From NCBI RefSeq assembly GCF_014201905.1, contig NZ_JACHFM010000001.1, positions 1 through 64,000 on the forward strand: a stretch of 64,000 nt of DNA. The letters are read 5' to 3'. Below, piece after piece: positions 45,832 through 64,000 of the stretch. The notes beneath the pieces are model-generated. The model was not told where the DNA came from. It ran no database searches and saw only the letters and a program-made list of their open reading frames with translations. How positions within the stretch are numbered: the first letter of the stretch is position 1; every line of letters begins with the position of its first letter. This DNA is from Amaricoccus macauensis (GTDB taxonomy: Bacteria; Pseudomonadota; Alphaproteobacteria; Rhodobacterales; Rhodobacteraceae). The position numbers and the translations under genes are program-made.

Positions 45832-45840
45832 GTCGGGGTC

Positions 45841-46287
45841 TCAGCGTTGCGGGAAGAGGAAGGCGAAGGCGATGCGCCGCCGCCAGGCATTGGTGAGCGG
45901 TTCCTCGATCACGCCGAGCCGCTCATAGGCGTGGAGGAAGGTGGCAGGACCGGTGAGGATCCCGACATGCTTGGCGATCGCGTGTGGCTTCATGCAGAAG
46001 AGGACCAGCGCGCCGGGACCGGCCTCGGCAGGCGACACCTCGATCATCATGCGCCGCGCGCCTTCGGCCAGAACCTCGCGCGGGCCGGTCTCGCCCCAGT
46101 CGCGGCTGTAAGGCAGAATCGGGAACGGCTCCGGCCCCACCACGTCGCGCCAGACCCCCCGCGCGAGCCCGAGGCAATCGCAACCGACGCCGCGCAGGCT
46201 GGCCTGGTCGTGGTACGGCGTGCCGAGCCAGGAGCGTGCGACGGCGACGACACGCGCGGGGTCGGCCGATGCGAGAGGTTGCGTCAC
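45841..46287 (-). CDS. NlpC/P60 family tail-tip peptidase
   Basis: A 148-residue protein of the GTA gp14 type. The catalytic Cys is in GVGCDCLGLARG (~38) and the His in AIAKHVGIL (~104), as in NlpC/P60 cell-wall peptidases. It begins ASADPARVVAVARSWLGTPY. It would open the peptidoglycan during DNA entry. Start and stop overlap or nearly touch the neighbouring tail genes. Confidence 0.88.
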   Translation of the reverse strand: MTQPLASADPARVVAVARSWLGTPYHDQASLRGVGCDCLGLARGVWRDVVGPEPFPILPYSRDWGETGPREVLAEGARRMMIEVSPAEAGPGALVLFCMKPHAIAKHVGILTGPATFLHAYERLGVIEEPLTNAWRRRIAFAFLFPQR

Positions 46288-47168
46288 AGCACGCCTCCCT
46301 CGTGGCCGCCATCCTTGGTGGCGTAGCGCAGCACGGCATCCTGGCCGGGGATGTGCGGGAACCCCCGGAAGTTGGCCGTGTTGGCGAACCTGGCGCCGCA
46401 GGTCTCGATCCGCTTATCGCAGCCCGCACGGATGGTGAAGGCATTGCCCTCGGAGATCTCGCGCACCGGCGCCTCGAGAAGGGTCAGCACGGCGATGCCG
46501 TCCGTCACATCATGGCCGAGAACCTCGGCCCGACGCCCCGCGTTGGAGCCACTGGTCCATTCGATGGTCCCGAAGGTGAACCAGCCGGAGGCGAAGCCGC
46601 CGAGGCCCGAAGCGGTGAAGGCGCGGTCGCGTAGAAGGTCGATCACGACGCTCGTGCCCTTGAACGCCGGGTTCTCCAGATCGACGCCGCAGCGCGCATC
46701 GCCGAGCGCGGCATCGCAGGTCGCCTGGAACGTCCGCCCGATCGTCTGGCCAAGCACATGCGCGAGCGAGCGGACTTCGGCGACGAAGGCCAGCCGCCCG
46801 CGCCGGATCTGGCCGATGGCCCCGCGCCGCATCAGCACGCGCTGGTTCGTGTCGGCCCAGTTCACCCGCCAGACTTCGACCTCGGCGTTATCCCAGCGGC
46901 CGTCGAGGATGTCGGTCTCGGTAATCCGGTCCGAGGTCAGCACGCCCTCGGCGTCCTGCGCATCGACCGAGAGGTCCGAGCCGGAACGGACCTCGGAGGC
47001 CGTCAGCCCGCTCTCGGGCTCGAAATCCGTCCCCTCGAAGCTGAGCGTCCGATCGTGGTCGGTGAAGCCGAAACTCGTGCCGTCGGCGCGCACGATCCGC
47101 CAGCACCAGGCGAGCGTCGTCGTTCCCTCGTCGAGATGGGCCTGCAGGTCGGGGTCGAGGGACTTCAT
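46284..47168 (-). CDS. DUF2163 phage tail protein (GTA gp13-like)
   Basis: A 294-residue baseplate-type protein. Family features include TTLAWCWRIVRADGTSFGFTDHDRTLSFEGTDFEPESG near the start and a C-terminal cysteine region (FTIRAGCDKRIETCGARFANTANFRGFPHIPGQDAVL). In RcGTA the homologue is a tail-hub iron-sulphur protein, and the cysteines here (CDAALGDARCG, GCDKRIETCG) would fit such a cluster. The gene is coupled to both neighbours by 4-nt overlaps. Confidence 0.88.
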   Translation of the reverse strand: MKSLDPDLQAHLDEGTTTLAWCWRIVRADGTSFGFTDHDRTLSFEGTDFEPESGLTASEVRSGSDLSVDAQDAEGVLTSDRITETDILDGRWDNAEVEVWRVNWADTNQRVLMRRGAIGQIRRGRLAFVAEVRSLAHVLGQTIGRTFQATCDAALGDARCGVDLENPAFKGTSVVIDLLRDRAFTASGLGGFASGWFTFGTIEWTSGSNAGRRAEVLGHDVTDGIAVLTLLEAPVREISEGNAFTIRAGCDKRIETCGARFANTANFRGFPHIPGQDAVLRYATKDGGHEGGVL

Positions 47169-47791
47169 CGGCGCAGTTCCAGAAGCGGGATGGAGGTGAT
47201 CGAGCCGAGCCGCTCGAGGTCGAGCGTCACGTCGAGCGCGTCGGTGTCGAAACGGACCGGCACGTCGAACTCGAAGCCCGCGGTGATGGCGGCGCCAGCG
47301 CCCGGCGCGGTGCTGAAGGTGACGACGCCGGTGGCGGTGTCGACCGACCAGCCGGAAGGCTGCTCGACCCCGCCGAGCGCGATGCGCGCGGTTCCGGTCA
47401 CCGGCTTCGCGACGGCGCGCGTCCAGGATTGCGCACCCGAGGCGTAGCGCTTGACCAGCTGGAAGGCGGTCGTCGCGCCGTCGCCCGTGCCGATAGACTG
47501 ATCGGTGGGCGACGGCGTGCCCGAAGGCAGGCAGGACTTGTGGTCACCCCAGTCCTTGAACCGGAAGCCATGCAGGCGGCCATTGCGCGCCTCGAAGAAG
47601 GCGACGACGGCGGCCAGATCGTCGGCGCGGCGGATGCCATAGGCGACATCGTAGCGGCGGCGCGAATTGGCCCAGCTGGCGTTGCGCTCCTCGTCGCCCG
47701 AGGCGAGCTCGACGATCTGCGTGCGCCGCTCCGGTCCGCCCCGCGCACCTCGGCTGATGTTGTCGGGAAACCGGACCTCGTGAAACGCCAT
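47165..47791 (-). CDS. DUF2460 distal tail protein (GTA gp12-like)
   Basis: A 208-residue protein matching DUF2460: MAFHEVRFPDNISRGARGGPERRTQI, then DDLAAVVAFFEARNGRLHGFRFKDWGDHKS and GFEFDVPVRFDTDALDVTLD. It is the distal tail ring. ATG 47791 shares one base with the tape-measure stop (TGATG). The open frame extends much further upstream, but only inside the tape-measure gene. Confidence 0.9.
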   Translation of the reverse strand: MAFHEVRFPDNISRGARGGPERRTQIVELASGDEERNASWANSRRRYDVAYGIRRADDLAAVVAFFEARNGRLHGFRFKDWGDHKSCLPSGTPSPTDQSIGTGDGATTAFQLVKRYASGAQSWTRAVAKPVTGTARIALGGVEQPSGWSVDTATGVVTFSTAPGAGAAITAGFEFDVPVRFDTDALDVTLDLERLGSITSIPLLELRR

Positions 47792-50208
47792 CACATGCCC
47801 CTCCGACCGAGCGACACGGCGCGGGCGATATCCGCGGCGACCTGCGTTCGCGATTGCCGGAAGCTCTCGGCGTCGCGGGCCATGATGGTCACGTTGACCC
47901 CGCCGCCCGCGCCGTAGCTCTGTGCCTCCCGCCGCGACAGCACGCGTTCCCCGCGCTGCAGGATCGCGGGCACCTCGTCGTGACGAAGCCCGGCCATGCC
48001 GCCACCATGCATCCGCGGCGCGGCGGCGAAGGCCATGGCCGGGACCATCCGCGAGGGTCCAGCCGATCCGACCATCCCGCCCGCATGCAGGACGTTGGCG
48101 AAGATGCCGCCCGCCCCGGAGAAGACGCCGGAGAGCGCATTGGCGATCGGCCCGAGGATGAACCGCCGCGCCGCCAGTTGGGCGAGATCGGCCAGCAGCG
48201 ACGTCACCAGATCGCGGAAGTCGAGCTTGCCGGTCTTCACGAACTGGCCCACCGCGTTCTCGGCCGACTGGAAGGCGCCGACGAGGCTCTGGCCGATGTC
48301 GCCACCGATCTCGCGGGCCTTGCTGGCGTAGTCGGAGAGCGCGGCGGTGACCGCCCGCCAGCCGGTGACGGCCGCGTCGGTCGCGGGCTCCGCTACCGCA
48401 GCAGCAGCTCCGGCCGCCACACCTGCATCTGTTGCGGCGCGCCCGGCGTCGCCGAGGGACGTCTCCAGGCGCTCCGCCGCAGCGGTGGTCTCGGCCAGTG
48501 CGTCGGCGCCGTCCTCGTCGGTGCCGCGTACGGCATCGCGCAGCGCCTGCCAGCTTTCGAGGGGCGCACGGGCCCCCTCCGCCAGGTCGCGCGCCGCGCC
48601 GCGGTAAAGGTTGGCGGACTCGAGCGCCCTGTTCGCCGCCTCGGTCAGACCGAGATCGGGCGCGGAGAGCGGATTGTCCTCGAAGGCCCGATCGAAGGCC
48701 GCCTGAGCTGCCGTGGTTGCGGCAGTCGCCGCTCCCTCGAAGCGGTTCTCGATCTCGCCGAGGTCGAGGTCCGGAACCAGCGATATGCGCCGCTCCGACC
48801 CGAGCGCTTCGAGCCCCTGGTTGATGCCGCCGATAAAGCCGTTGATCCGCGAGACCACCCCGTTCAGCATCGCCTCGACGCCATCGACCAGGCTGTTGGC
48901 CGCCTGGAACGCGAGATCGCCGATGGCGGCGGGCAGCAGGCCCCAGATCGCCTTGATCGCCTCGTAGGCGCCTTCGAAGGTGTTCGCGGCCGTGTTGCCG
49001 AAGCCCACCACGCTCTCGATGGCGCTCTGCATGCCCGATGCGGCATCCGCCTTCAGGTCGAAGAACATCGCCGTGGCGGCCGCGCCCGCCGCCGCCGCGC
49101 CCATACTGATGCGTTCCCAGACCTCGACCGCGAGGTCCTTCAGGAGCGACATCGCTTCTCCGAAACCGCCGGCGCCGGAGACGAGCCGGGTGAACTGGTA
49201 GACGAGCTCGCCCGCGCCGACGATCAGCGCGCCGATGCCGGTGCGGATCAGCGCCCCGCGCAGGACAACGAGCGCCGTGGCGAGGCCCCGGACCGAGAGC
49301 GCCGCAGCCGCCATGCCGGCGACCCAACGTCCCGCGAGGAACGCCGCGAAGGTGGCGGCATAGGTGGTCAGGCGGCCGATGTTGTCCAAGAGACCGCGGA
49401 TCGCGATGCCGAGCGGCCCGGTGCGGCTGGCCACCGCCGCCATGGCATCGGCGACGGCTTCCAGCGCAGGTGCCGCTGCGACCGCCAACTGGTTCGAGAG
49501 CCCGCGCCAGACCAACCCGAGCCGCGAGATGGCGTCGTTCGTCCGCTCGATCTGGTCGGCGTCCTGCTCGGAGACGACAACCCCGAAGGCGAGGACGTCC
49601 TCTGTCGCCTGGCGCAGCGTCGCGGTGTCGATCCGGCTCATCGCGATGGAGCCTTCCTCGCCGAAGAGCTGGCCCGCGACCGCCGCGCGCTCGGCGGCAG
49701 GCACGAAGCTCTCGATCGCCGCGTTGATCGCGCCCACGCGCTGGTCCAGCGGCAAGGCGATCAGCTCATTTGCTGAAAGCCCCAGCCGGTCGAGCGCGTC
49801 GGCAGCAGGGCCGGTCCCGGCGGCCGCCTGACTGAGACGGCGCGTCAGATCCTTGGTGGCCTGCTCGATGCCGGACATGGAGACGCCCGCCAGATCGCCC
49901 GCGCGCTCCAGCGTCTGGATCGAGGCGACGGTGGTGCCGAGCGACTGCGCCAGCTTCGCCTGCGCATCGACCGTCTGCAGGCTGGACCGGATCATCGCCA
50001 CGCCAGCAGCGGCTGCGGCGGCCACGGCAGCGGCAGCCGCGACCCGCACCCGCCGCGAGAAGGCCGCGAGCCGGGCGTTCGCGGCTTCCATCTCCCGGCT
50101 CAGCCGTCCGAAGCCGCGCGACCCGGCCTCGCCCACGCCTTCGAGTTCGGCGCGCACCTGCCGTCCGCCCACGGCCGCGAGGCGGACGCTGACCCTCTTC
50201 TCAGCCAT
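47791..50208 (-). CDS. Tail tape-measure protein
   Basis: An 805-residue protein that sets tail length. It begins with a helical Arg/Ala-rich domain (MAEKRVSVRLAAVGGRQVRAELEGVG) and then a TMP repeat-like domain. Long Ala-rich helices dominate, with hydrophobic spans such as AAATAAVAAAAAAGVAMIR (~55) and VLRGALIRTGIGALIVGAGEL (~315). The C-terminus is Gly/Met/His-rich (GGMVGSAGPSRMVPAMAFAAAP), typical for this family in Rhodobacterales. The start overlaps the end of the frameshifted chaperone product. Confidence 0.87.
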   Translation of the reverse strand: MAEKRVSVRLAAVGGRQVRAELEGVGEAGSRGFGRLSREMEAANARLAAFSRRVRVAAAAAVAAAAAAGVAMIRSSLQTVDAQAKLAQSLGTTVASIQTLERAGDLAGVSMSGIEQATKDLTRRLSQAAAGTGPAADALDRLGLSANELIALPLDQRVGAINAAIESFVPAAERAAVAGQLFGEEGSIAMSRIDTATLRQATEDVLAFGVVVSEQDADQIERTNDAISRLGLVWRGLSNQLAVAAAPALEAVADAMAAVASRTGPLGIAIRGLLDNIGRLTTYAATFAAFLAGRWVAGMAAAALSVRGLATALVVLRGALIRTGIGALIVGAGELVYQFTRLVSGAGGFGEAMSLLKDLAVEVWERISMGAAAAGAAATAMFFDLKADAASGMQSAIESVVGFGNTAANTFEGAYEAIKAIWGLLPAAIGDLAFQAANSLVDGVEAMLNGVVSRINGFIGGINQGLEALGSERRISLVPDLDLGEIENRFEGAATAATTAAQAAFDRAFEDNPLSAPDLGLTEAANRALESANLYRGAARDLAEGARAPLESWQALRDAVRGTDEDGADALAETTAAAERLETSLGDAGRAATDAGVAAGAAAAVAEPATDAAVTGWRAVTAALSDYASKAREIGGDIGQSLVGAFQSAENAVGQFVKTGKLDFRDLVTSLLADLAQLAARRFILGPIANALSGVFSGAGGIFANVLHAGGMVGSAGPSRMVPAMAFAAAPRMHGGGMAGLRHDEVPAILQRGERVLSRREAQSYGAGGGVNVTIMARDAESFRQSRTQVAADIARAVSLGRRGM

Positions 50209-50521
50209 GGGAATGATCCATCTTTTCGTTGAGCTTGGCCACCATCACCGCTTCGATGACGGGCAAGAGTTCACCCGCAGCAGCGGGCGGGACGCCGAGC
50301 GCATTTCCCAGAGCGAGGGCCGCGGACAGGTCCCAGCCGACCACCGCGCCGGGCAGCACGCGCAACTGACCGCCGAGGCGGCCGACGAGATCCCAGACCT
50401 GCCAGCCCTCATGGGTAAGCGGCCGGTTCAGGCGCGTCGGGCAGTCTTCGCACGCTTGCGCGCAGGCTTCGCAGTAGCGCTCGCCCCCGCCGAAGGACCA
50501 CTCGGCGAGAGCGCGGAGGCG
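50201..50521 (-). CDS. -1 frameshift extension of the tail assembly chaperone (GT-like part)
   Basis: This frame has no ATG, GTG or TTG usable for its conserved part and is reached from the upstream gene by slipping back one base at 50521-50527. The extension is 106 residues: RLRALAEWSFGGGERYCEA, then CxxC-x3-CxxC (YCEACAQACEDCP), then RPLTHEGWQVWDLVGRLGG and AALALGNALGVP, ending HSHG. The stop overlaps the tape-measure start region. By analogy with lambda G and GT, the long form (~222 residues) would bridge tail tube and tape measure. The cysteine set suggests a zinc site. Confidence 0.7.
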   Translation of the reverse strand, partial: RLRALAEWSFGGGERYCEACAQACEDCPTRLNRPLTHEGWQVWDLVGRLGGQLRVLPGAVVGWDLSAALALGNALGVPPAAAGELLPVIEAVMVAKLNEKMDHSHG

Positions 50522-50868
50522 TTTTTTTCCTGTTCCAGCAGCAGGCCTTTGGACACGTAGGTCAATTGGAAGGCCTCGAAGATCGGCCAGACGTCGAGCA
50601 GCGCGTCGATGGCCTCGGGGGTGGGATCGATCGGGTTGCCGTCGGCATCGCCGATGCCCTCCCAGCCGAGCACAGCCCGTCGCGCCAGCGCCTTGGCGAA
50701 GGCGACGGCGCGCTCCTCGTCGGAAGCCTCCTCGGGCACCGCCTCGACGGCGGGGTCGCTGCGCGTCGCGACCATCAGGGCGGTCGTCAGCGGGCGCAGT
50801 TGCACCCGGACGCCGGGGGCGAGGTCATGCCAGCGCGGCGCGTTGGTCAGGTCGAGCGTCAGCATCAA
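50428..50868 (-). CDS. Tail assembly chaperone (G-like, short form)
   Basis: A 146-residue protein just before the tape measure, where chaperones are encoded. The folded part is LTLDLTNAPRWHDLAPGVRVQLRPLTTALMVATRSDP through YVSKGLLLEQEK (~116). After the A-rich slippery site the zero frame runs into a low-complexity Ala/Ser/Lys/Arg tail, unlike the folded part. The -1 frame instead continues as a conserved domain. It overlaps the tail tube gene by 4 nt. Confidence 0.8.
   Translation of the reverse strand: MMLTLDLTNAPRWHDLAPGVRVQLRPLTTALMVATRSDPAVEAVPEEASDEERAVAFAKALARRAVLGWEGIGDADGNPIDPTPEAIDALLDVWPIFEAFQLTYVSKGLLLEQEKNASALSPSGPSAGASATAKPARKRAKTARRA
50521..50527 (-). promoter_or_regulatory. 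Slippery heptamer A-AAA-AAC with downstream stem-loop
   Basis: On the minus strand the zero-frame codons GAA-AAA-AAC contain A AAA AAC, a classical -1 slip site. Six bases further on, GCGCTC-(TC)-GCC pairs with GGCGAGCGC across a ~15-base loop, a stimulatory stem at the expected distance. Slippage joins the chaperone to the frame ending at 50201. Confidence 0.75.
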
Positions 50869-51806
50869 TACGTCTCCACGTCATTCACGAGGGTGGCGGT
50901 GCACATCCGGCCGACGACGCTGTCGCGCGCGGCCTGCCAGTCGAATGTCGCCTGGACGCCCTGCGGCCCGGAAATCTCGATCCGTGGACGCGGCAGGTAG
51001 ACGGCGTGCACGGTGAAGGAGAAGCTTTCGCCTGAAGGCAGGACGTAGGCGAATTCCATCTCGCAGGCCTCGCCGTTGATCGCCTGCGTCACCAGCGTCT
51101 GGTCGGCGAAGCGCACCTCGATCCGGCCCGTCAGCGCGGCAATGGATGGATCCGCGCCATCGATGCGGCCGTCCGAGCGGATGGTCTCGATCCGGTCGAG
51201 GTTGTTGGCGTAGGTGATCTCGGCCGAGACCACATTGCCGAGGGCGGTGCCGTTCCGGGTGATCGCCCCGTTGAAATGGCCGAAGCGCTTCAACTCCAGT
51301 GCGGCGGGCGTTCCGGCACTGGTCGTGGTGCCGACCGTCTCGCCCTGCGCCACCAGCCGCGCGGTCGCGGTGAGCAGGCCCGAGCGCTGCATCTGCCAGG
51401 TGATCTGGTCGAGCACGCAGCCCGAGTACATCGCATAGCGGGGCACCTCGGGCATGCCGGTCTCGATCGACATCGAGGGCAACGTCCAGGACCCCGACTG
51501 AAATTCGTGGCTGTACGGGGCCTCCGCGCCCGTGGTCGTGGGCGCGCCGAAGGCTGCCTTCAGCCAGAAGCCGAACGCCTCGGCGTCCAGCGGCACGACG
51601 ACGTCGCCGTCGGCCGTCACGGCGTCCTTGATCGGCGCTAGCGGATCGCGGCCGTAGCCGAGAAGCTCCGAATTCAGCAGCGGCTGCTCCGCGCCGAGCG
51701 ACGTGCTGGCGAAGGGCATGCGGGTGAAGCCGCTGACGGGCGGCGTTCCATAGGTCGTCTCGAACGCAAGCGCCATCAGCGCTCGCGCCCCTTGGGCTCG
51801 TGCCAT
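50865..51806 (-). CDS. Phage tail tube protein
   Basis: A 313-residue protein with the tail-tube pattern: ALMALAFETTYGTPPVSGFTRMPF at the start, GDVVVPLDAEAFGFWLKAAFGAP (~70) and a beta-rich remainder with ITYANNLDRIETIRSDGRIDG and FSFTVHAVYLPRPRIEISGPQG. It polymerises into the tail shaft. It lies 24 bp downstream of the DUF3168 gene and overlaps the chaperone gene. Confidence 0.87.
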   Translation of the reverse strand: MARAQGARALMALAFETTYGTPPVSGFTRMPFASTSLGAEQPLLNSELLGYGRDPLAPIKDAVTADGDVVVPLDAEAFGFWLKAAFGAPTTTGAEAPYSHEFQSGSWTLPSMSIETGMPEVPRYAMYSGCVLDQITWQMQRSGLLTATARLVAQGETVGTTTSAGTPAALELKRFGHFNGAITRNGTALGNVVSAEITYANNLDRIETIRSDGRIDGADPSIAALTGRIEVRFADQTLVTQAINGEACEMEFAYVLPSGESFSFTVHAVYLPRPRIEISGPQGVQATFDWQAARDSVVGRMCTATLVNDVETY

Positions 51807-51830
51807 GTTCGTCTCCTGTGGTCGGTTGGG

Positions 51831-52247
51831 TCAGGCCAGCGGGTCGGCCGTGGAATAGTGCAGCACGACCGGGATAACGGCGGCCTTCAGACTCGCCGCG
51901 CCCTCGACCGGCAGATCGACCGGGCGCGGGGCTTCGGCCTCGACCCAGTCGCAGAACCCGCCCAGCGTCCGGTCGGCGGCGAGCGCTGCGCCGATGCTGG
52001 CGGTCAGCGTGTCAAAGGCGGCGTCGCGATCGGCACCCTGAACGACCGCCTCGATCTCGGCTCGGTGCTGGTAGTGATAGCGCAGCGGCGACAGCGTGAC
52101 TTCGGGCGCACCTGGTTCGCCATCGCGCAGGATCATCAGGCCCTCGACCGGCATGCGCTCGGGCAGCACGTCCCCGCGCAGAGCGGTGGCGGGCAGCGCC
52201 GAGAGCCGCGCGTGCAGCGCGACGAGGATGGTTTCGCGAGGTGTCAT
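51831..52247 (-). CDS. DUF3168 tail completion/terminator protein
   Basis: A 138-residue protein: TPRETILVALHARLSALPATALRGDVLPERMP, then SPLRYHYQHRAEIEAVVQGAD and a C-terminal VIPVVLHYSTADPLA. DUF3168 proteins cap the tail or join it to the head (GTA gp8 type). The ATG at 52247 overlaps the merR stop codon (ATGA). Translation may therefore be coupled to merR, which is not a phage gene. In an uninterrupted phage this gene would follow the DUF6441-like gene directly. Confidence 0.85.
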   Translation of the reverse strand: MTPRETILVALHARLSALPATALRGDVLPERMPVEGLMILRDGEPGAPEVTLSPLRYHYQHRAEIEAVVQGADRDAAFDTLTASIGAALAADRTLGGFCDWVEAEAPRPVDLPVEGAASLKAAVIPVVLHYSTADPLA

Positions 52248-52669
52248 GGGTCGGCCGAGTTGGAAATCGCGTCGAGCACCGGACAATCGGGGACTTCGGC
52301 GCCCGAACACCTGGATGCAGTTGTAGCGAGGACGGATTCGATACGCCGAAGATCCGCGATCCTCGCGCGGACATCGGCAAGGTGCCGCTCCGTCCGTTCC
52401 TTGACCTCGGCGCAGGTCGGCGCGGCGCCGTCGCCGAGCCCCATCAGCCCGCGGATGTCCTCCATCGAGAACCCGAGTTCGCGGGCGCGCAGGATGAAGC
52501 GGAGGCGTGTGGCGTGTGCGGCGGAATAGACCCGGTAGCCGGCGTCCGTGCGGGGCGGGTCGGGCAGCAGGCCGGTCTTCTCGTAATAGCGGATCGTCTC
52601 GATGTTGCAGCCGGTCGCCCGGGCCAGGTCGCCGCGTGTGAAGCCGCTCTCGCGCTCGTGATCGGTCAT
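52244..52669 (-). CDS. merR: MerR mercury-responsive regulator
   Basis: A 141-residue regulator. It has the MerR winged HTH (FTRGDLARATGCNIETIRYYEKTGLLPDP) and metal cysteines at TCAEVKERTERHL (~81) and CSGAEVPDCPVLDAI (~119 and ~127). This three-Cys set across the dimer binds Hg(II). It diverges from merT over a typical mer operator. Its stop overlaps the start of the phage DUF3168 gene, on the same strand. A longer frame to 52723 would run through the operator and is rejected. Confidence 0.88.
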   Translation of the reverse strand: MTDHERESGFTRGDLARATGCNIETIRYYEKTGLLPDPPRTDAGYRVYSAAHATRLRFILRARELGFSMEDIRGLMGLGDGAAPTCAEVKERTERHLADVRARIADLRRIESVLATTASRCSGAEVPDCPVLDAISNSADP

Positions 52670-52683
52670 GGGCAAGTTTCCTC

Positions 52684-52714
52684 TTGAGCCTGTAGTTGCT
52701 ACAGACCCTACACC
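52684..52714 (+). promoter_or_regulatory. mer operator-promoter
   Basis: TTGAGC (-35, 52684-52689) and TACACC (-10, 52709-52714) are separated by 19 bp. The perfect dyad CTGTAG-TTG-CTACAG (52690-52704) lies between them. This is the standard MerR architecture: repression without Hg(II), activation by untwisting with it. Confidence 0.85.
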
Positions 52715-52745
52715 CATCGTCAATCACAGACGAGAGGTGCGCGAC

Positions 52746-53135
52746 ATGGCGCTGACAGACGACAGAACGGACAGCACGGGCGCGGATCGCCCCGCCCGAA
52801 AGGGCTGGCTCGCGGCGGGCGGTGTGGTGGGCGCCTTTCTCGCCTCGGCCTGCTGCATCGGGCCGCTGGTGCTTCTGACTCTCGGCATCTCGGGCGCCTG
52901 GATCGGCAACCTGACGGCTCTGGAGCCTTACAAGCCGATCTTCGCCGTGATCGCGCTCGGCTTCATCGCGGCGGGTTTCTGGCAGGTCTATTTCCGCAAG
53001 CCAACCGTCTGCGAACCCGGTTCCTACTGCGCAAGGCCAGCATCGGCGCGCATCACCAAGTCGGCTCTCTGGGCCTCCCTGATCCTCGTTCTCGCAGCCC
53101 TCACCATCGACTGGTGGGCCCCGCTTCTCTACTGA
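52746..53135 (+). CDS. merT: MerT mercuric ion transporter
   Basis: A 129-residue inner-membrane protein with three spans. TM1 carries the Hg-binding pair (VGAFLASACCIGPLVLLTLG). A second Cys pair lies in the cytoplasmic loop (VCEPGSYCARP). TM3 is ALWASLILVLAALTI. It brings Hg(II) to the cytosolic reductase. ATG 52746 is chosen; an upstream frame to 52668 crosses the operator. Confidence 0.9.
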   Translation: MALTDDRTDSTGADRPARKGWLAAGGVVGAFLASACCIGPLVLLTLGISGAWIGNLTALEPYKPIFAVIALGFIAAGFWQVYFRKPTVCEPGSYCARPASARITKSALWASLILVLAALTIDWWAPLLY

Positions 53136-53153
53136 CCCCGAAAGGACATCCAC

Positions 53154-53459
53154 ATGAAGAAGATCCTTGCACTCGCCTTGTTCGGCCTGACCGCCGTTGT
53201 GCCGATCACCGCCATCCCTGTTGCCGCGCAGACCGTCGCCGCCGAGCAGACCGTCACCTTCGCGGTGGACAACATGACCTGCGCGCTCTGCCCAGTCACC
53301 GTGAAGCGTGCGATGGAGGGCGTCGCGGGCGTGCGCGCCGTCGAGATCGACTTCGATGCCCGCACCGCCACGGTGATCTTCGACACCGCCGCGACGAGCG
53401 CCGACGCCATCGCGACCGCGTCGGCCAATGCAGGCTACCCGGCGCGTGTCGCGGGCTGA
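53154..53459 (+). CDS. merP: MerP periplasmic mercury-binding protein
   Basis: A 101-residue protein with a signal peptide (KKILALALFGLTAVVPITAIPVAAQ) and one HMA domain whose DNMTCALCPVTVKRAM holds the CxxC Hg site. It hands periplasmic Hg(II) to MerT. The gene lies 18 bp after merT. Confidence 0.92.
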   Translation: MKKILALALFGLTAVVPITAIPVAAQTVAAEQTVTFAVDNMTCALCPVTVKRAMEGVAGVRAVEIDFDARTATVIFDTAATSADAIATASANAGYPARVAG

Positions 53460-53463
53460 CGAG

Positions 53464-53697
53464 ATGACCGAGCAGTCCGACCGCAAGCTGATCGCGACAG
53501 GGATCGTCGGCACCGTCATCGCGGCGCTCTGCTGCTTCACTCCGGTGCTGGTGGTGCTTCTGGGTGCCGTGGGCCTGTCGGCCTGGCTGGGTTGGCTCGA
53601 CTACGTTCTGCTGCCCGCGCTCGCCTTTTTCGTCGCGCTGACCGTGTACGCGGTCTGGAGACGGCAGCGGCGCCAGACCACTCGAACGGATGGATGA
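53464..53697 (+). CDS. merF: MerF mercury transporter
   Basis: A 77-residue two-span membrane protein. TM1 holds the paired cysteines IAALCCFTPVLVVLLGAVG and TM2 is YVLLPALAFFVALTVYAV. MerF is a small alternative or addition to MerT. It starts 4 bp after merP and overlaps the merA start. Confidence 0.87.
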   Translation: MTEQSDRKLIATGIVGTVIAALCCFTPVLVVLLGAVGLSAWLGWLDYVLLPALAFFVALTVYAVWRRQRRQTTRTDG

Positions 53698-55126
53698 CTT
53701 GATGAAAGACGATTGCTGCGCGCCCAAGGGCGATTTCGACCTTGCCGTGATCGGCGCCGGATCGGCCGGGTTCTCGGCCGCGATCACCGCCGCCGAGGGA
53801 GGCAAGCGCGTCGCGCTGATCGGCCATGGCACCATCGGCGGGACCTGCGTGAACGTGGGCTGTGTGCCCTCCAAGACGATGATCCGGGCCGCGGAAGCCC
53901 TGCACGGTGCGCAGACAGCACATCGGTTCCCGGGCCTGAACAGCGAGGCGCAGGTCGCCGACTGGTCGGCGCTGATTGCGGCCAAGGACGATCTTGTCGC
54001 GACACTGCGCCAGAAGAAGTACGCCGATCTGCTGCCGGGCTACGGCGGTGTGACCTATCTCGACGAGGGTCCGGCGCGTCTCGTCCTCGGCGGGGTCGAG
54101 GTCGGCGGGCGCAGGATCACGGCTCCCAAGGTGATCGTCGCGACCGGTGGCCGACCCGCCGTGCCCGACATCCCTGGGATCCAGGACGCACCAACGCTCG
54201 ACAGCACGTCGCTGCTGGAGCTGGACCGGTTGCCCGAAAGCCTGATCTTCCTCGGCGGCGGCTACATCGGCGTGGAGCTGGCGCAGATGATGGCGCGGAT
54301 GGGCACCCGCGTCACCATTGTCTGCCGCTCGCGCCTGCTGCCGCGCACAGAGCCGGAGGTGTCCCGGGCGCTGACGGAGACGCTGCGCGCCGAGGGCGTC
54401 GCGGTTGTCGATGGCGCGACCTACGACGCCGCACGGCGCGACGGGGCCCGTGCGGTCCTGACGGTGACGGTGGACGGCGCAGACCGCGATCTGACGGCCG
54501 ACCGCCTCGTCCTGACGACGGGACGCGCAGCCAACACCGAGGGGCTGGGCCTCGCGGAGATGGGCGTCGAGACCGACGCGCGTGGCGCGATCCGGGTGGG
54601 CGACGACATGCAGACCACGAAGGCCGGCATCTTCGCGGCGGGCGATGTGACCGACCGCGACCAGTTCGTCTACATGGCCGCCTATGGCGCCAAGCTCGCG
54701 TCCCGCAACGCCGTTCTGGGCGGGGCGGAGCGCTACGACAACGCCGCGATGCCGTGGGTGGTGTTCACCGATCCGCAGGTCGCCGGCGTCGGGCTGACCG
54801 AGGCGCAGGCGCGCGCCGCGGGTCATGACGTCAAGACCAGTGTGCTGACGCTCGACAACGTGCCCCGCGCGCTCGCCGCCCGCGACACGCGCGGCCTGAT
54901 CAAGCTCGTCGCGGACCGGGCGACCGACCGCCTCCTGGGCGGCGTGATCATGGCGCCGGAGGGAGCCGACAGTGTCCAGACGCTCGCCATGGCGCTCAAG
55001 TTCGGCATGACGACAAAGGCGCTCGGCGAGACGATCTTCCCCTATCTGACCACGGTAGAGGGGCTGAAGCTCGCCGCGCAGACCTTCGACAAGGATGTCG
55101 CGAAGCTGTCGTGCTGCGCGGGGTAA
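53690..55126 (+). CDS. merA: Mercuric reductase MerA, short form without NmerA domain
   Basis: A 478-residue flavoenzyme that reduces Hg(II) to volatile Hg(0) with NADPH. It has the FAD site FDLAVIGAGSAGFSAA, the redox pair GTCVNVGCVPSK, the NAD(P)H site SLIFLGGGYIGVELAQ, FAAGDVTDRDQFVYMAA, and the C-terminal cysteine pair LSCCAG that takes mercury from the surface. The N-terminal HMA domain of many MerA proteins is missing, so MerP/MerT/MerF must deliver the ion. ATG 53702 (MKDDCCAP) is an alternative start. The gene ends 50 bp from the convergent phage gene, without a strong terminator between. Confidence 0.93.
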   Translation: MDDLMKDDCCAPKGDFDLAVIGAGSAGFSAAITAAEGGKRVALIGHGTIGGTCVNVGCVPSKTMIRAAEALHGAQTAHRFPGLNSEAQVADWSALIAAKDDLVATLRQKKYADLLPGYGGVTYLDEGPARLVLGGVEVGGRRITAPKVIVATGGRPAVPDIPGIQDAPTLDSTSLLELDRLPESLIFLGGGYIGVELAQMMARMGTRVTIVCRSRLLPRTEPEVSRALTETLRAEGVAVVDGATYDAARRDGARAVLTVTVDGADRDLTADRLVLTTGRAANTEGLGLAEMGVETDARGAIRVGDDMQTTKAGIFAAGDVTDRDQFVYMAAYGAKLASRNAVLGGAERYDNAAMPWVVFTDPQVAGVGLTEAQARAAGHDVKTSVLTLDNVPRALAARDTRGLIKLVADRATDRLLGGVIMAPEGADSVQTLAMALKFGMTTKALGETIFPYLTTVEGLKLAAQTFDKDVAKLSCCAG

Positions 55127-55176
55127 CCCGAGCCGTCGGTTTCGTGGCTGCCGAGCAAGATTGCGCATCGATGCGA

Positions 55177-55806
55177 TCACAACCTACCCCCCACCCAGTT
55201 CGCCACGATCAGCCCCGGCACGCTGTCCAACGCCCGGTCTGCATCCCGCGCCAGATCCAGCCGCTTCGGCAGCTTGACCTGCGGCACCAGCAGGAAGATC
55301 GGCGCAGTGACCTTTCCGCGCCCGGTCTTCGACCGCGACACCACCGCCTGGCCTTTCGTGTTCAGCCGCCCCTCGGCGACCAGCAGGCTGGGGCCCGTCC
55401 GGCGATAGACGAAACGCAGGCGGAGGCCGCGTCGCCGCTCCCATTCACCGGGGGTGATCCGGCCGCCGCGCAGGGATTTGCCCGCCGCGGGCAGCGGGAT
55501 CGCCAGCCAGAACCCGTTCTTCGATCGGATCAGCGGCCCGGTGTCATGCGCACCGACGATTACCGGCGCCTTCGACCAGACCAGCGCCGCAGCCTCAAGG
55601 CTCTCGCCCGACCTCGGGAAGTTCTGGCTCCGGATCGAGTTGGCGAGCCGTGTACCAAGCCCCGCGCCGGTGATCTGCAACCGCCACGCCGTCTTCAGCC
55701 CAGTCCCGGCCTCGCGAATGGCGGCGGTGACGGCCCGTTCACCCGCCGCGACCTCGGCCGCCATCATCGCGACGATGTCGGGATCGATGTCGAGCTTCAG
55801 TTTCAC
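55177..55806 (-). CDS. DUF6441-like phage neck/head-tail protein
   Basis: A 209-residue protein with a helical N-terminus (DIVAMMAAEVAAGERAVTAAIREAG) and a long basic, beta-rich rest (KNGFWLAIPLP, RFVYRRTGPSLLVAEG). Such proteins lie between connector and tail-completion genes and act like HK97 gp10. It overlaps the downstream end of the upstream connector gene by 4 nt. On its own downstream side the mer operon intervenes before the next phage gene. Confidence 0.75.
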   Translation of the reverse strand: MKLKLDIDPDIVAMMAAEVAAGERAVTAAIREAGTGLKTAWRLQITGAGLGTRLANSIRSQNFPRSGESLEAAALVWSKAPVIVGAHDTGPLIRSKNGFWLAIPLPAAGKSLRGGRITPGEWERRRGLRLRFVYRRTGPSLLVAEGRLNTKGQAVVSRSKTGRGKVTAPIFLLVPQVKLPKRLDLARDADRALDSVPGLIVANWVGGRL

Positions 55807-56114
55807 GCGGGCCTCAGGTCGACGGTCCAGACCAGCCGCTCGCGGTCGCGGACCGGCTCGCCCTGTATGAGGAAGGCGTCGCCGTCGATCTCGATGCGGT
55901 CGCCGGGACGCGGGTTCGCCACCTCGGCCACGCGCAGGTCGATCCGGGTGGTTTCGGACCAGAGCCGCGCGTCGCCGAAGTCGGTGACCGCGTCGGCGCG
56001 ACGGGCGACGGCACGCACCAGCACGGGTGTACCGCCGTCGGCGATGTAGACCGCGTCCCGGCCGATGTTCGGATCGGCGAAGAGCGCGCCGATGGCGGCG
56101 GCGAAGGCCGACAT
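55803..56114 (-). CDS. Small head-tail connector protein
   Basis: A 103-residue beta-rich protein: AIGALFADPNIGRDAVYIADG, TTRIDLRVAEVANPRPGDRIEIDGDAFLIQGEPV and RLVWTVDLRPA. The layout recalls FII-like or stopper proteins between decoration and neck genes. ATG 56114 is used because it overlaps the upstream stop; the longer frame lies inside the DUF2190 gene. Family assignment is tentative. Confidence 0.65.
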   Translation of the reverse strand: MSAFAAAIGALFADPNIGRDAVYIADGGTPVLVRAVARRADAVTDFGDARLWSETTRIDLRVAEVANPRPGDRIEIDGDAFLIQGEPVRDRERLVWTVDLRPA

Positions 56115-56449
56115 CAGAACGTCGCGTTCAGGCGCACCCGGCCGATGGTGTCGCCGGCGCCGCTCGCCACCGCCTCGACGGCCGCGCCGATGAGGGTGTT
56201 GTCGGTCGCGACGGTCGTGGTGCGCTTGTTGGTGTCGTCCCAATAGACCTTGGCGCCGACGGTCCAGGCCTGCGAGCCGACCTTGGTGATGTCGAACACG
56301 CCGACGAGCGCGGTCTCGACGGGCTCGCCAATGGCGGCGGCACCCGCGGCGATGCCGAAGATGGAGCCGACGAGCAGGCCATCGCCGGAGGCGACGGCAT
56401 AGGGCGCGGTCAGGGTGATGGTGTTGCCGGGCTGGACGTAGGTTTTCAT
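56114..56449 (-). CDS. DUF2190 capsid decoration protein
   Basis: A 111-residue protein matching DUF2190: MKTYVQPGNTITLTAPYAVASGDGLLVGSIFGIAAG, WTVGAKVYWDDTNKRTTT and NTLIGAAVEAVASG. It is a trimeric cement protein for the capsid shell. It lies 74 bp downstream of the protease-capsid fusion, behind a GC-rich hairpin. Confidence 0.85.
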   Translation of the reverse strand: MKTYVQPGNTITLTAPYAVASGDGLLVGSIFGIAAGAAAIGEPVETALVGVFDITKVGSQAWTVGAKVYWDDTNKRTTTVATDNTLIGAAVEAVASGAGDTIGRVRLNATF

Positions 56450-56475
56450 GATGGGGATCCTCGTGGAAAGACGAA

Positions 56476-56497
56476 GGGCGGCCCGTCAGGACCGCCC
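56476..56497 (-). terminator. GC-rich hairpin after the capsid gene
   Basis: On the minus strand GGGCGGTCC-TGAC-GGGCCGCCC forms a strong stem followed by CTTCGTCTTTCC. The T-tract is interrupted, so termination would be partial. It may tune capsid against downstream expression. Confidence 0.35.
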
Positions 56498-56523
56498 GTG
56501 TGTCAGGGTTCAGGAAGCGCGCC

Positions 56524-58578
56524 TTACGCGCCCGGGTTCTTGTAGAGGCCGCGCCAGTCGATGGCCTTGGCTCCGAAGTCGAGGCGGCACTTGATCTCGA
56601 CCCCGTCGACGTCGAAGCCGTTGCGCGTCTCGATATAGGCGCCCTGCTGGCCCTCGAGATAGGCGTACTCGATGGTGTCGATCTGGTTCGGGCTGGCCGC
56701 CAGATACCAGGCGGTCTCGCTGGCGGCGTCGAGCCGGGGCTCGCTGATCGGCGCCAGCGTCCTGATCGACTGCGGCACCACGCTGGACGTCGCGGCGGGC
56801 ACGAGGTTCTGGGCCACCAGCTGTTCGGCTTTCAGTTCCAGTGAGGCCGGCACGATCAGGAAGGCAGGCCGGACGTTCAGCACCGTCTTCTTGTCGAGGC
56901 CGGTCTGCTTGGCCATCGCCGCGCGCGCCGCTCCGACGCTGCTGACATCGAGCGCCGCGCCGGTGCCTGCCAGGTTCTTGTGGGTGGTGTGGAAGAGCGC
57001 ATTGCCGTCGGCCATCGCCGGGTTGGCGGTGATGATGCCCCAGACCACGTCCGACTCCAGCTGGGCGATGGAGTTGCCGTACATCGCCGGGATGCGGGTG
57101 AAGGCGTCGAGATCGTCGTTGATCAGCGTCTGACGGGTGATGGCGACCACCCGGCCATAGGTCTTGACCTTGTAGCTCTCCTTGCTCTCGCCCAGCGTGC
57201 CGCGCTTGAACTCGCCGCTTTCGCCGACCTCGAGCAGCTGCGGGGCTTCGCCGAGCTGGACGCGATGCATCGCCTTGAAGTCGGTCGCCAGCACCTGGCG
57301 ACAGAACAGCATGAAGGTGCGGGGATAGGCCTCGTAGGCCTGCCGCAGCGTCTTGTTGGTGACGGCCGACAGGATCTCGGGGAAGTCCGAGGTCGAGTGC
57401 AGCGCGCGCGTCGCCACCTCGTCACGCGACAGGCCGCGCGTGTTGACCCCGGCATTGCCGAGGCTTTCGCGGGCGAGCTCCAGCAGCGTCATGCCGCGAT
57501 ACTGGCGCGCGGCGTCCTCGAGCTGGAACAGCGTTGGGCTGTAGCGGTGCAGCAGTGCGTTCGCCACCGCGTCACGGCGGGTGATGCACTCGTCTCGGCC
57601 GCCGAGCGGGACGGAGACATGGGGGAAGTTCCGGGTCTCGTCGGATTTCGCGGCGACCTGGTCGAGGATCAGTCGGCGGGACTCGTCGATGCTGACGCCG
57701 CGCTTGACCAGATCCTCGGCGAAGCCGCGCTCGAGGTTCAGCCGCCCGGCCAGATCGTAAATGGTGGAGACGCGGTCGCGCTCGGCCTCGCGGGCGCGGG
57801 TGGCGACCACTTCGGTATCGGGCGCGGGAGTTACCTGCGTCTTCTGGCTGCGCGTCTCGCTGGCCGCGACCTTCGGGTCGGGCGCAGCCGGTTTCGGCTC
57901 GGTCATGGGGGTGTCCTCGGTTTCGACCGGCGCGGTCGGCTGGGTGTTGGCGGGGGTTGCGGCGTCGCTCGCCGGGGTCTGGGTCGTGTCCGTCATCGGG
58001 ATCGGTCCTTTCGTGGTGGAAGGGGCGTCCCGGCGGTGGAGGACGCAGTCGTGAAGGGGGTGCTGGGCGCGGAAGCCCGCTGCTGGGTCGGCTCCGACCG
58101 CGACGGCGGAGACCTCGAAGGGCGTCCAGTCCACCGCGCGCCAGAGCTCGCGGGCGCCATCAGGCTTCGAGATATCAAACCGGTGGACCTGGTAGCCGAT
58201 GGAGACGGCGCGGATGTGCCCCGCCTGGATGTCGCGCCAGATCGGCTCGACATCGGCACGCTCGCTGATCCGGACCAAGGCGATGCCGCGACCGTTCTCG
58301 ATCCGGGCCGAGCCCGGCACGACCGAGCCGATCACCGCGTCGAGCGTGTCGAGCTCGTGCACCTTCAGGAACGGCGCGCCCGCGTTCAGCCGGTCGAGCC
58401 GGACATGGGCCGGGTCGAGGCTGAGTTCCTCGTCATAAGGCTCGCCGAAGAAGGTGGCACGGCGGACGCGAGCCCCGGCCGACCAGACCACCTCGACGGT
58501 GCGGTTGTCGGCATCGGCCGTGTTCGGCGCAAGCTCCGCCGACCGGCGCATGGCCGGCAGTTCGATCATCGTGTCCAT
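56524..58578 (-). CDS. Prohead protease / major capsid protein fusion
   Basis: A 684-residue polyprotein. Residues ~1-165 resemble a U35/U9-type prohead protease (VWSAGARVRRATFFGEPYDEEL, a His in FLKVHELDT, IRAVSIGYQVHRFD with the Ser, WTPFEVSAVAVGAD). A disordered Pro/Thr/Ala linker follows (~180-260). Then come a scaffold-like helical part and an HK97-type capsid fold (~400-684; KVKTYGRVVAITRQTLINDDL, NALFHTTHKN). The protease would cut itself off during maturation. ATG 58578 is used because coding sequence further up belongs to the portal gene. Confidence 0.85.
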   Translation of the reverse strand: MDTMIELPAMRRSAELAPNTADADNRTVEVVWSAGARVRRATFFGEPYDEELSLDPAHVRLDRLNAGAPFLKVHELDTLDAVIGSVVPGSARIENGRGIALVRISERADVEPIWRDIQAGHIRAVSIGYQVHRFDISKPDGARELWRAVDWTPFEVSAVAVGADPAAGFRAQHPLHDCVLHRRDAPSTTKGPIPMTDTTQTPASDAATPANTQPTAPVETEDTPMTEPKPAAPDPKVAASETRSQKTQVTPAPDTEVVATRAREAERDRVSTIYDLAGRLNLERGFAEDLVKRGVSIDESRRLILDQVAAKSDETRNFPHVSVPLGGRDECITRRDAVANALLHRYSPTLFQLEDAARQYRGMTLLELARESLGNAGVNTRGLSRDEVATRALHSTSDFPEILSAVTNKTLRQAYEAYPRTFMLFCRQVLATDFKAMHRVQLGEAPQLLEVGESGEFKRGTLGESKESYKVKTYGRVVAITRQTLINDDLDAFTRIPAMYGNSIAQLESDVVWGIITANPAMADGNALFHTTHKNLAGTGAALDVSSVGAARAAMAKQTGLDKKTVLNVRPAFLIVPASLELKAEQLVAQNLVPAATSSVVPQSIRTLAPISEPRLDAASETAWYLAASPNQIDTIEYAYLEGQQGAYIETRNGFDVDGVEIKCRLDFGAKAIDWRGLYKNPGA

Positions 58579-58583
58579 GAAGG

Positions 58584-60152
58584 TCAGTCCTGTTGGTCGG
58601 CCTGCGCCGGGTCTGTATCCGCGTCGGCGGTCGGGTCGTCGGCGTCTGGTTCGTCGGCGGCCGGATCGTTCGCCGGATCGCTGGCCCCGTCTTTGGATTG
58701 TGCGCTGCCGGTCTTGGTGACGCGGCGAGGGTCGCTGTCGAGGACCAACCCCAGCGCGTCGAGCTTGGCGTTGGTCGCCGCGATCTCGGCCAGCACGGCG
58801 TCGGGGTTGCGGCCCTGCCGGGCGATCACCTCGGCCAGCGTCATGGTGCCCGAGCGGATGGACAGCAGGTTCGCCATCGCGTCCTTCTGCGGATCGACCG
58901 CCTCGAACTTCGGCGGCGACCATTCCACAGGCACGATCGGCGACGGGATCTGCCCCGCCGCCCATGCGGCTTCCGTGAACCACCGCCACACCGGGGCGCA
59001 GAACATCGGGATGAACAGCTGCCATTGGACGGCGTCGATCTGGCGGCGGAACTCCACGAGACCCGCCCGGATCGAGGAGTAGTTCACTTGGGACAGGTCC
59101 CCCGTCAGCAGCTCGTAGGGCACGCGGAAGCCTGCCGAGATCGTGTGCAGGCTCGCGCGCTTGTATTCGCCGTAGCCGCCCGTCGCCGAGGGCTGGTTGA
59201 AGCGGATGTCCTTGCCGCCGCGGGCATAGGCGATCAGCCCCGGCTCGAACTGTTCCACCCGGTTGCCGTCGGCATCGACCACGGAGGGCGCGATGCCCTG
59301 TTGCGCCTCGTCGTCGCCGAAGACGATGGCGGTGACGCAGGCCTCGGTCTTCTTGCGAACCAGTTCGGCCACTTCATAGTCGTCGAGATCACGCAACGAC
59401 CGGATCACCGGCGCGCCCCAGGGGACGCCGCGCGCTTGCGTGCGCTGCTTCTCGTAGACATGGGCGATCTCGGTCGCGGGGACCGGGCGGCTCTGCAACC
59501 CGTTCTGCAAGGCCCCGTAGGCGTCGCCCGGATGCTCGGCATGCAGCCAGTAAGCCCGGCGCTTCCCGACCGGGTCGAACTCGATCCCCTGCACGAGGCG
59601 CCCTGCGCCGAGGGCTCCGGACTTGGTGGCGTCGAGGAAGTCGGCTTCCAGCACCTGCAATTGCAGCGGCACCGGCAGGCCGTCGCTCGCGCGCCGCAGG
59701 CGGCGGCGCACCAGAACCTCGCCCGCCTCGACCATCTCCCGGCAGATCAGCGTCTGCAGGCCATAGAAGTCAAGCTGGCCATCGGCGTCGCAGTCCGCCG
59801 TCCAGCGTTCGAAGAGCGCATCGACCTTCCGGTCCAGCTTGTCGTCGCCGCTAGCGGCGCGGGGCATGATGCCCGCGCCGATGATGTTGTTGACCAGCAC
59901 CGCCACGGCCTTGGCCGCATGCGGGTTGTTGCGCACCAGATCGCGCATGCGGTCGCGCAGCAGCGCCCCGGCGACGCCGATTTCGGTGTCGGCCGAGGAT
60001 CCCGGCGCGCGCCAGCCGTCCGTCCGTCGCCCGCGCGCCGCGCCGTCATAGCCACGCGTCAGCGTCTCGAATGCCTGACGCGCCATCACGCGCCGAGCCG
60101 CCATGCGCGGCGCCACCGTGGCGATGGCGTGGTCGAACCAGGTCGCCGACAT
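58584..60152 (-). CDS. Phage portal protein, lambda family
   Basis: A 522-residue protein: MRDLVRNNPHAAKAVAVLVNNIIGAGIMPR (~70-98), QTLICREMVEAGEVLVRRR and EVAELVRKKTEACVTAIVFG. It forms the dodecameric DNA gate at the capsid vertex. The C-terminal ~50 residues are a disordered Asp/Ala-rich tail. Its start shares one base with the connector stop, and the capsid fusion begins 5 bp after its end. Confidence 0.9.
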   Translation of the reverse strand: MSATWFDHAIATVAPRMAARRVMARQAFETLTRGYDGAARGRRTDGWRAPGSSADTEIGVAGALLRDRMRDLVRNNPHAAKAVAVLVNNIIGAGIMPRAASGDDKLDRKVDALFERWTADCDADGQLDFYGLQTLICREMVEAGEVLVRRRLRRASDGLPVPLQLQVLEADFLDATKSGALGAGRLVQGIEFDPVGKRRAYWLHAEHPGDAYGALQNGLQSRPVPATEIAHVYEKQRTQARGVPWGAPVIRSLRDLDDYEVAELVRKKTEACVTAIVFGDDEAQQGIAPSVVDADGNRVEQFEPGLIAYARGGKDIRFNQPSATGGYGEYKRASLHTISAGFRVPYELLTGDLSQVNYSSIRAGLVEFRRQIDAVQWQLFIPMFCAPVWRWFTEAAWAAGQIPSPIVPVEWSPPKFEAVDPQKDAMANLLSIRSGTMTLAEVIARQGRNPDAVLAEIAATNAKLDALGLVLDSDPRRVTKTGSAQSKDGASDPANDPAADEPDADDPTADADTDPAQADQQD

Positions 60153-60361
60153 CAGCGATCCCCGCGCGAGAAGCCAGCGAGCCCCGCCACGGGCAGCGGG
60201 CGGCTGAAGCCCGCGATGGCGCGCTCGATGGTCCGGATGCGGGCGAGCAGATCCTCGGCCGAGCCGTAATCCACCGACTTGCCGTCATAGCTGACGCGCG
60301 TCGTGCCGCTGGCATAGGCCCGGCGCAGCGCCGAAAGCTCGGTTTCCGTCCAGTCGATCAT
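60152..60361 (-). CDS. gpW-like head-tail joining protein
   Basis: A 69-residue protein, typical gpW length: MIDWTETELSALRRAYASGTTRVSYDGKSVDYGSAEDLLARIRTIE, here seen as two helices around a short hairpin (RVSYDGKSVDYG). It lies between terminase (2 bp gap) and portal (1 nt overlap), the usual place. Confidence 0.82.
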   Translation of the reverse strand: MIDWTETELSALRRAYASGTTRVSYDGKSVDYGSAEDLLARIRTIERAIAGFSRPLPVAGLAGFSRGDR

Positions 60362-60363
60362 GT

Positions 60364-62911: not shown

Positions 62912-62943
62912 CGACGGCTCCGATTATCTATCGAAATCATGTT

Positions 62944-62960
62944 CTTATCGAGTTGATAAG
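62944..62960. promoter_or_regulatory. Conserved palindrome in divergent terminase promoter region (copy B)
   Basis: Identical 17 bp to the dyad at 1896-1912, in the same position between the divergent genes, while bases on both sides differ between copies. Conservation against drift supports a protein-binding site. Confidence 0.5.
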
Positions 62961-63022
62961 CAGCGCGACCGGAGCGAACGTCCGTTCAGAAGGACGATGC
63001 AACTCACCAAGGAGCCATCACG

Positions 63023-63295: not shown

Positions 63296-63297
63296 TC

Positions 63298-63337
63298 TCC
63301 GGCACTGCCGGAACTCCCGCCGCGCGCCCTGCGCGGC
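63298..63337 (+). other. Two conserved stem-loops between the 90-aa and DUF3489 genes (copy B)
   Basis: TCCGGC-ACT-GCCGGA (63298-63312) and GCCGCGC-GCCCT-GCGCGGC (63319-63337). Stems are as in copy A; only the first loop changes. This pattern fits selection on RNA structure. Confidence 0.4.
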
Positions 63338-63390
63338 TCGGGGTCGTAGGAGGCGCCGCATGACGCGGGCCCGAATACGGAGACGATCCC

Positions 63391-63963: not shown

Positions 63964-64000
63964 CGCGCCGGACCCCGACAAGCTGATGACCGCCGTCCCT

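Follow-up and report, generated by a model that had tools for sequence, protein, structure and literature searches.

A mercury-resistance operon, probably one of many occupants of a cargo slot between the DUF6441 and tail terminator genes of an alphaproteobacterial prophage family

The first 64,000 nucleotides of contig NZ_JACHFM010000001.1 of Amaricoccus macauensis (hereafter the window) contain a prophage with a complete mercury-resistance (mer) operon among its virion assembly genes. This operon is very probably the current occupant of a cargo slot (moron site) at the junction of the DUF6441 and tail terminator genes, in a family of temperate siphophages of the Alphaproteobacteria. The reading draws on sequence comparisons: the slot itself, its junctions, the variety of its cargo, blocks of recombination, purifying selection and a distribution across bacterial orders. 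The interval 52244-55176 is filled exactly by merR on the minus strand and merT, merP, merF and merA on the plus strand, and an earlier note on this DNA, which had placed these five genes between a DUF6441 gene and a tail gene with merTPFA running against the late operon and merR along it, was correct to the base in its coordinates and also in the strands. The left wall of the slot (55177-55806, minus strand) is indeed a DUF6441 gene (PF20039, 158 bits), and matches PHROG 6367, where it has no function assigned. The right wall (51831-52247, minus strand) had been labelled DUF3168, which has to be replaced, as it gave no Pfam match at an E-value of 0.001 or 0.1 and is a tail terminator gene by PHROG 4204 (E 1e-41). 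Both walls belong to the late structural operon of a siphophage prophage (41866-62911, minus strand, annotated with Pfam, NCBIfam and PHROG), in which the genes for the small and large terminase subunits, portal, decoration and head-tail attachment proteins and DUF6441 precede the mer interval, and the tail terminator gene is followed by those for the tube, chaperone, tape measure, baseplate hub, a minor tail protein (so called by PHROG, and which we take to be NlpC-like) and megatron.

The mer genes are recognisable individually, although not all reach the stricter family cut-offs. The metal regulator gene merR (52244-52669, minus strand) has a Pfam MerR-DNA-bind domain (74 bits) and cysteines in PTCAEV and CSGAEVPDC, and its product scores under the equivalog cut-off of NCBIfam TIGR02051 (125.5 vs 150.85 bits), though this is the best of the 16 models listed. 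The mercuric ion transporter gene merT (52746-53135, plus strand) passes PF02411 (105.5 bits) and stays below NF010314 (106.8 vs 150 bits), and merP (53154-53459, plus strand), encoding a periplasmic Hg-binding protein with MTCALC, passes Pfam HMA (49.7 bits) and stays below TIGR02052 (77.1 vs 92.6 bits). The transporter gene merF (53464-53697, plus strand) passes both Pfam MerF and NCBIfam NF033565 (112.5 bits, cut-off 50). The mercuric reductase gene merA (53702-55126, plus strand) matches TIGR02053 with 524 bits (cut-off 454), and its translation has the redox-cysteine motif GGTCVNVGC and a C-terminal CC; no N-terminal HMA domain was matched in the Pfam scan. A spacer of 50 bases (55127-55176) separates the merA and DUF6441 stop codons. 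At 52684-52714 (plus strand) lies TTGAGC-N19-TACACC with the dyad CTGTAG-TTG-CTACAG inside the 19-base spacer, which we take to be a MerR-type promoter/operator. This layout recurs with small changes in all six other mer loci examined, two on plasmids (L204, L205), one without phage walls (L013) and three in other prophages (L136, L139, L149). A shorter mer variant lacking ~0.8 kb was seen in L136 (Rhodobacter kunshanensis, with an IMG/VR copy, L041) and in the metagenome contig L043. The segment gone from L136 corresponds to 52839-53661 of the window, i.e. most of merT, merP and most of merF, leaving merR and merA, and as L043 has the same form as L136, the shorter form is probably real.

Records of the junction were gathered by scanning the proteins of viral contigs and named genomes, by a search of relatives and from three isolated phages, in a survey that was seeded with the window's own proteins and retained the best 80 of 600 candidates. 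Both walls were present in 253 of the 303 records (the other 50 lacked one wall, ended before a wall or were other mer loci), and collapsing those identical in both the insert and the first 300 bases of DUF6441 left 200 non-redundant records. The slot is empty in 11 of these and filled with 359-3344 bp in 189, and its length is two-peaked, with no record between -1 and 359 bp. The earlier note had described mer as cargo amid virion assembly genes, which stands, and the site as an unusual one where insertion would break the operon, which does not, given the 189 relatives with cargo in the same place. It had also pointed to related phages lacking mer, and cargo-free sites such as L232, L288, L294, L297, RcKemmy, RcKvothe and Sc-Yong805-1 show a clean junction: read letter by letter, the two genes overlap by four bases in nine of the 11 empty sites and by one base in the other two. 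In the nearest empty relative, L232, the overlap is TTGA, and the translated terminator is close to that of the window. With no bases to spare at the empty site, only an insert placed exactly at the junction can leave both wall proteins intact. Filled slots reach down to 63% DUF6441 identity to the window, so that empty and filled sites overlap in divergence.

Two more prophages in the same genome (contigs 5 and 6) have the same walls and, by DNA search, different inserts of ~0.8-0.9 kb. The presence of mer between both walls is not due to chance, as the mer cluster of the survey has 22 records (15 non-redundant), with a slot of 2929 bp in 18, 2928 bp in one and 2125 bp in three; some are copies of one place, namely L001 and the window, and L012 and L149. 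The tail terminator N-terminus seems to track the state of the slot: MPTPRET opens the protein in 57 of 119 clusters of filled sites, the mer form has MTPRET, and the empty sites closest to the window have MSARET, MTRET or MSLRET; the start may be misplaced in a few records (L215, L173).

The 242 filled records form 119 nucleotide clusters, 88 of them with a single non-redundant record, and each cluster name is based on a single scanned member. Cargo proteins were compared with Pfam one by one for 30 open reading frames (ORFs) plus 7 others (one cluster being in both sets), and as a tally for the 81 proteins of alignment A2, alignment A1 having 70. Metal and ion transport genes include chromate resistance genes chrB/chrA in nine records (six non-redundant; for instance L063 5628-8009, in which, as in the eight others, a ChrB C-terminal domain with rhodanese and a chromate transporter were seen), cation efflux genes with an HMA domain in two clusters (5 and 3 records), a SulP sulfate permease in four records, and MFS and LysE transporters. 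We take the further Cation_efflux member of the A2 tally to be L059, judging from its translation. Toxin-, signalling- or defence-like cargo is represented by HEPN, NYN, Gp49, PLD, RelA/SpoT, NERD, helix-turn-helix (HTH) plus M78, QueC with nucleoside deoxyribosyltransferase, DarT/NADAR, protein kinase, RES and DUF3800. PADLOC matched 58 families for the 70 proteins and 56 for the 81, with one member each among the 25 families listed, which is not a count of defence genes, as several families can match one protein. No Pfam match was obtained for 11 of the 30 cargo proteins scanned singly, and the 274-aa and 243-aa proteins carried by the sister prophages of the same genome (L003 and L002) also lack one. 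The inserts are densely coding (median 0.89), and have a median G+C (guanine plus cytosine) fraction over clusters of 0.55 vs 0.69 for the DUF6441 gene.

From this layout we infer that cargo may arrive with its own regulation and be expressed from the lysogen. MerR and the divergent promoter would drive merTPFA against the late operon, and the lysogen would thereby be able to take up Hg(II) and reduce it to Hg(0). In an active phage, late mRNA would presumably cross the slot and sustain the tail genes, with merR read in the sense direction within it and ribosomes passed on to the tail terminator gene in vivo at an ATGA overlap. This overlap, already seen in the earlier note, lies at 52244-52247, where TCAT is ATGA on the minus strand and the TGA stop of merR is shared with the tail terminator start. 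The statement that the same coupling is used elsewhere in the late operon is borne out by four more junctions with 4-base overlaps (45841-46287/46284-47168; the gene end at 47165 with the start at 47168; 50428-50868/50865-51806; and 55177-55806 with the next gene ending at 55803). In the two plasmid operons compared MerR has 138 residues and its own stop, whereas the phage merR frame extends by three residues, to 141, up to the TGA at the tail terminator start.

The overlap could also mean that the position is itself regulatory, with Hg(II) wired to virion assembly, the merR transcript entering the tail genes and merTPFA transcription opposing the head genes. No terminator-like site was found between merR and the tail terminator gene, and in 79 of 119 clusters the longest cargo ORF is read against the late genes (p 0.0004), both of which favour such a role. 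However, other types of cargo occupy the slot without a metal regulator, and of the 42 clusters in which the last called ORF runs along the late direction it overlaps the tail terminator start in only two, one of them being mer. Furthermore, a Shine-Dalgarno-like word precedes the tail terminator start in 34 of 119 clusters vs 19 in shuffles, which suggests that many clusters have their own weak translation signal. We therefore consider a regulatory position unlikely, and the coupling of merR and the tail terminator gene could be incidental. Scans of the slot for sigma-70-type promoters and terminator-like sites found nothing, the MerR-type promoter being present, and the idea that the slot holds a terminator or an RNA element was rejected, as neither was found. 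Similarly doubtful, if a shade less so, is a broader reading in which the phage family uses the point junction among its neck genes as a standing exchange platform, one family member has become a closely related, cross-order vehicle of mercury resistance in Alphaproteobacteria, and metal sensing is physically tied to tail synthesis, with merR transcription entering the tail terminator gene, Hg(II)-induced merTPFA transcription opposing the head genes, and mercury both protecting the lysogen and shifting virion output.

With regard to how cassettes reach the slot, the exact borders in 119 unrelated cassettes might suggest a dedicated site-specific mechanism recognising the junction, as opposed to homologous exchange after a rare illegitimate gain, and the tail terminator gene does start with ATGCCC in 84 of 119 clusters and with ATGCCCACCCC in 43. 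Sharp borders are nevertheless explained without a special mechanism by the point-like empty site, and inside the inserts any given 6-base start or end occurs in at most two of the 119 clusters. Integron-like placement, which would entail a shared recombination site and a nearby integrase, was not supported either, as there was no common border sequence and the insert proteins scanned had no recombinase in common, although the cargo of L225 is a transposase. Sliding identity of eight loci to the window over 50.2-57 kb fits ordinary recombination instead: in L127 identity is complete only over ~50.65-55.8 kb and falls outside it, L128 and L122 have breakpoints at ~52.1 and ~50.5 kb, respectively, and L149 is near-identical to the window only around merR. 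Since such blocks extend into the flanking genes, the cassette travels together with parts of the walls, a pattern that fits homologous recombination, and a dedicated site-specific mechanism looks distinctly improbable.

Within the cargo-slot reading, cargo would thus be swapped between related phages by homologous recombination in conserved flanking structural genes, and as several such phages may share one cell, several prophages in one cell would offer a chance for exchange. Pairs of filled records with DUF6441 genes 94-98% identical have the same cargo in two of 12 cases, and those in the 99% bin, which is taken to be mostly the mer phage, in 49 of 49. Rhodobacterales plasmids are a plausible source of the phage cassette, with mer operons of 88-92% DNA identity over ~70% of the query among the matches listed. 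Outside that listing, the search had two records in a 95-99% band.

The alternative that a one-off mer insertion crippled the late operon and left a relic gains something from the antisense direction of merTPFA, from the lack of a visible terminator and from a contig that starts inside a second related prophage. Set against this are the 15 non-redundant mer records and the searches of ten genomes, chosen for carrying the stretch, with a 20-kb query (41001-61000). Single matches over 20 kb and including mer, at 96-100% identity, were found in seven of the ten: Histidinibacterium lentulum (100%), Jiella pacifica, Tropicimonas isoalkanivorans, Roseibium aestuarii and Rhodovulum visakhapatnamense (all 99%), Paracoccus marcusii (97%) and a Hoeflea sp. 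(96%); in the other three, which are metagenome-assembled genome (MAG) records, the match was shorter or fragmented. The late structural genes around mer have ratios of nonsynonymous to synonymous substitution rates (dN/dS) of 0.04-0.16 in 10 of the 11 comparisons that yielded a ratio, with 0.28 in the remaining one. A relic is thus very unlikely, and it was rejected, together with a chimera of two prophages, on the 20-kb matches elsewhere; the flanks, which the earlier note had allowed might come from different broken prophages, belong to one phage. An assembly artefact, or two broken prophages joined at mer, has next to no probability and is regarded as refuted, since for all that this is a draft genome of 18 contigs with repeated prophages, independent assemblies carry the identical joint. 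The mer genes themselves are under purifying selection, which fits use of the operon: the comparisons that yielded a ratio have dN/dS of 0.06-0.28, except for merT in L136 (0.43), where the missing ~0.8 kb of the cassette leaves just 29 aligned codons.

The hosts belong to different orders, Histidinibacterium to the Rhodobacterales, and Jiella, Roseibium and Hoeflea to the Hyphomicrobiales. Of the six hosts in which the left arm was compared, Roseibium, Histidinibacterium and Hoeflea match the window to ~27.3 kb (99.96%, 99.97% and 99.7%, respectively), Jiella matches at 97% to 34.5 kb and then at 79%, and Tropicimonas (95%) and Rhodovulum (88%) match only from ~39.4 kb. The prophage ends in Roseibium, Histidinibacterium and Hoeflea at the sequence TGGCGGAGGGGATGGG, a putative attachment core at 27326-27341 of the window (left end of the prophage, start approximate), beyond which host DNA differs, apart from ~50 adjoining bases common to the window and Histidinibacterium. 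The core presumably resembles the reverse complement of a tRNA 3' end, and no tRNA was found at the left prophage end. The Roseibium contig has a 7.6-kb block, ~5.4 kb beyond the prophage end, that shows collinearity with three of ten congeners, which indicates that this copy of the mer prophage belongs to a Roseibium replicon. The differing host flanks beyond the core in three hosts and the collinear Roseibium flank were the grounds for rejecting contamination as an explanation of the matching phages in distant hosts. This collinearity check covers Roseibium, and the MAG records L124, L127, L129 and L131 could be mis-binned; a 16S gene was found in two of the four host genomes checked.

Several points weigh against a general cargo slot with mer as one occupant. 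As sampling was seeded with the window's proteins, close relatives are over-represented in the frequencies and mer is given too much weight. Among the empty sites, the four closest to the window have DUF6441 genes 70-77% identical to that of the window, and none was seen above 77%. The mer insert has a G+C fraction of 0.68, and hence is not low in G+C. Cargo ORFs were called mechanically by a mixed rule, as codon-score calling is unsuited to low-G+C cargo, so the ORF and orientation counts are mechanical too. Finally, no terminator-like site was found in the spacer between merA and DUF6441 (55127-55176, fold z -0.32), so that nothing seen there would limit antisense transcription.

Morons and phage hotspots are already known as a kind; what is new, judged from these comparisons, is that a phage found across orders carries complete metal-resistance operons at a point junction amid its virion assembly genes. 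Morons of lambdoid and Mu-like phages are mainly ORFs of 34-100 codons in nine regions (PMC4378225). They are foreign cargo of other base composition, as most of the present inserts appear to be, and likewise lie between adjacent phage genes, with no shared recombinase target recognised. The present case differs in having one fixed slot, with up to 3.3 kb and complete metal-resistance operons. The anti-phage hotspots of P2 and P4 are also loci of ~1-5 kb that are flanked by two conserved genes, turn over rapidly and have defence content, but they sit at gpA/portal gpQ (P2), at psu/int (P4), or by the repressor and integrase (PMC9122126), unlike the present slot inside head-tail assembly genes, where metal resistance is a leading cargo in a biased sample. 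Prophages of Paracoccus, in the same host group, carry ArsB, ZntA, TerB/TerC, ZitB and a lead/cadmium/zinc/mercury transporter, and the accessible part of that study names no mer operon, fixed slot or cassette exchange (PMC6536676). Phages of the RcC cluster (PMC8601537) have the same order of portal, protease-capsid fusion, attachment, DUF6441, terminator and tube genes, with RcKemmy differing in its empty slot and an ATGA overlap of DUF6441 and terminator genes. The plasmid mer operons of Ruegeria (L205) and Celeribacter pP73C (L204) share the merR/merT-P-F-A order and the operator layout, and differ in their plasmid location, the Celeribacter copy lying beside transposition genes. No description of a DUF6441/tail-terminator cargo slot and no mention of DUF6441 was found in the literature searched, which covered subscription papers poorly and excluded bioRxiv, and is thus weak evidence of novelty. 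The slot would offer a fixed address for collecting uncharacterised phage cargo, some of which matches defence models, and it suggests that Hg and Cr resistance and cation efflux can move across orders on temperate phages as well as on plasmids. It also poses a puzzle for late transcription, as tail genes would have to be expressed behind cargo that in those 79 clusters is read the opposite way.

Some other features of the window were noted. ARAGORN called a tRNA-Gly (anticodon acc) on the plus strand at 48318-48408, inside the tape-measure gene, which is probably spurious. In the contig 6 prophage, L010 2331-4140, which separates the baseplate hub gene from the tail gene that follows it, holds ORFs resembling a lysis cassette (named by eye, without a family search), where the window prophage has only an ATGA overlap at the corresponding junction. 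A second slot at 47165 of the window, where contig 6 has 1.8 kb, was not counted, as the ORFs look like this lysis cassette. Lastly, positions 1-22092 of the window match the early-gene side of the same phage family in pieces of ~76-92% identity and repeat 61061-64000 at a spacing of ~61.05 kb, which we read as a second related prophage that begins at the contig start, beside the mer prophage.

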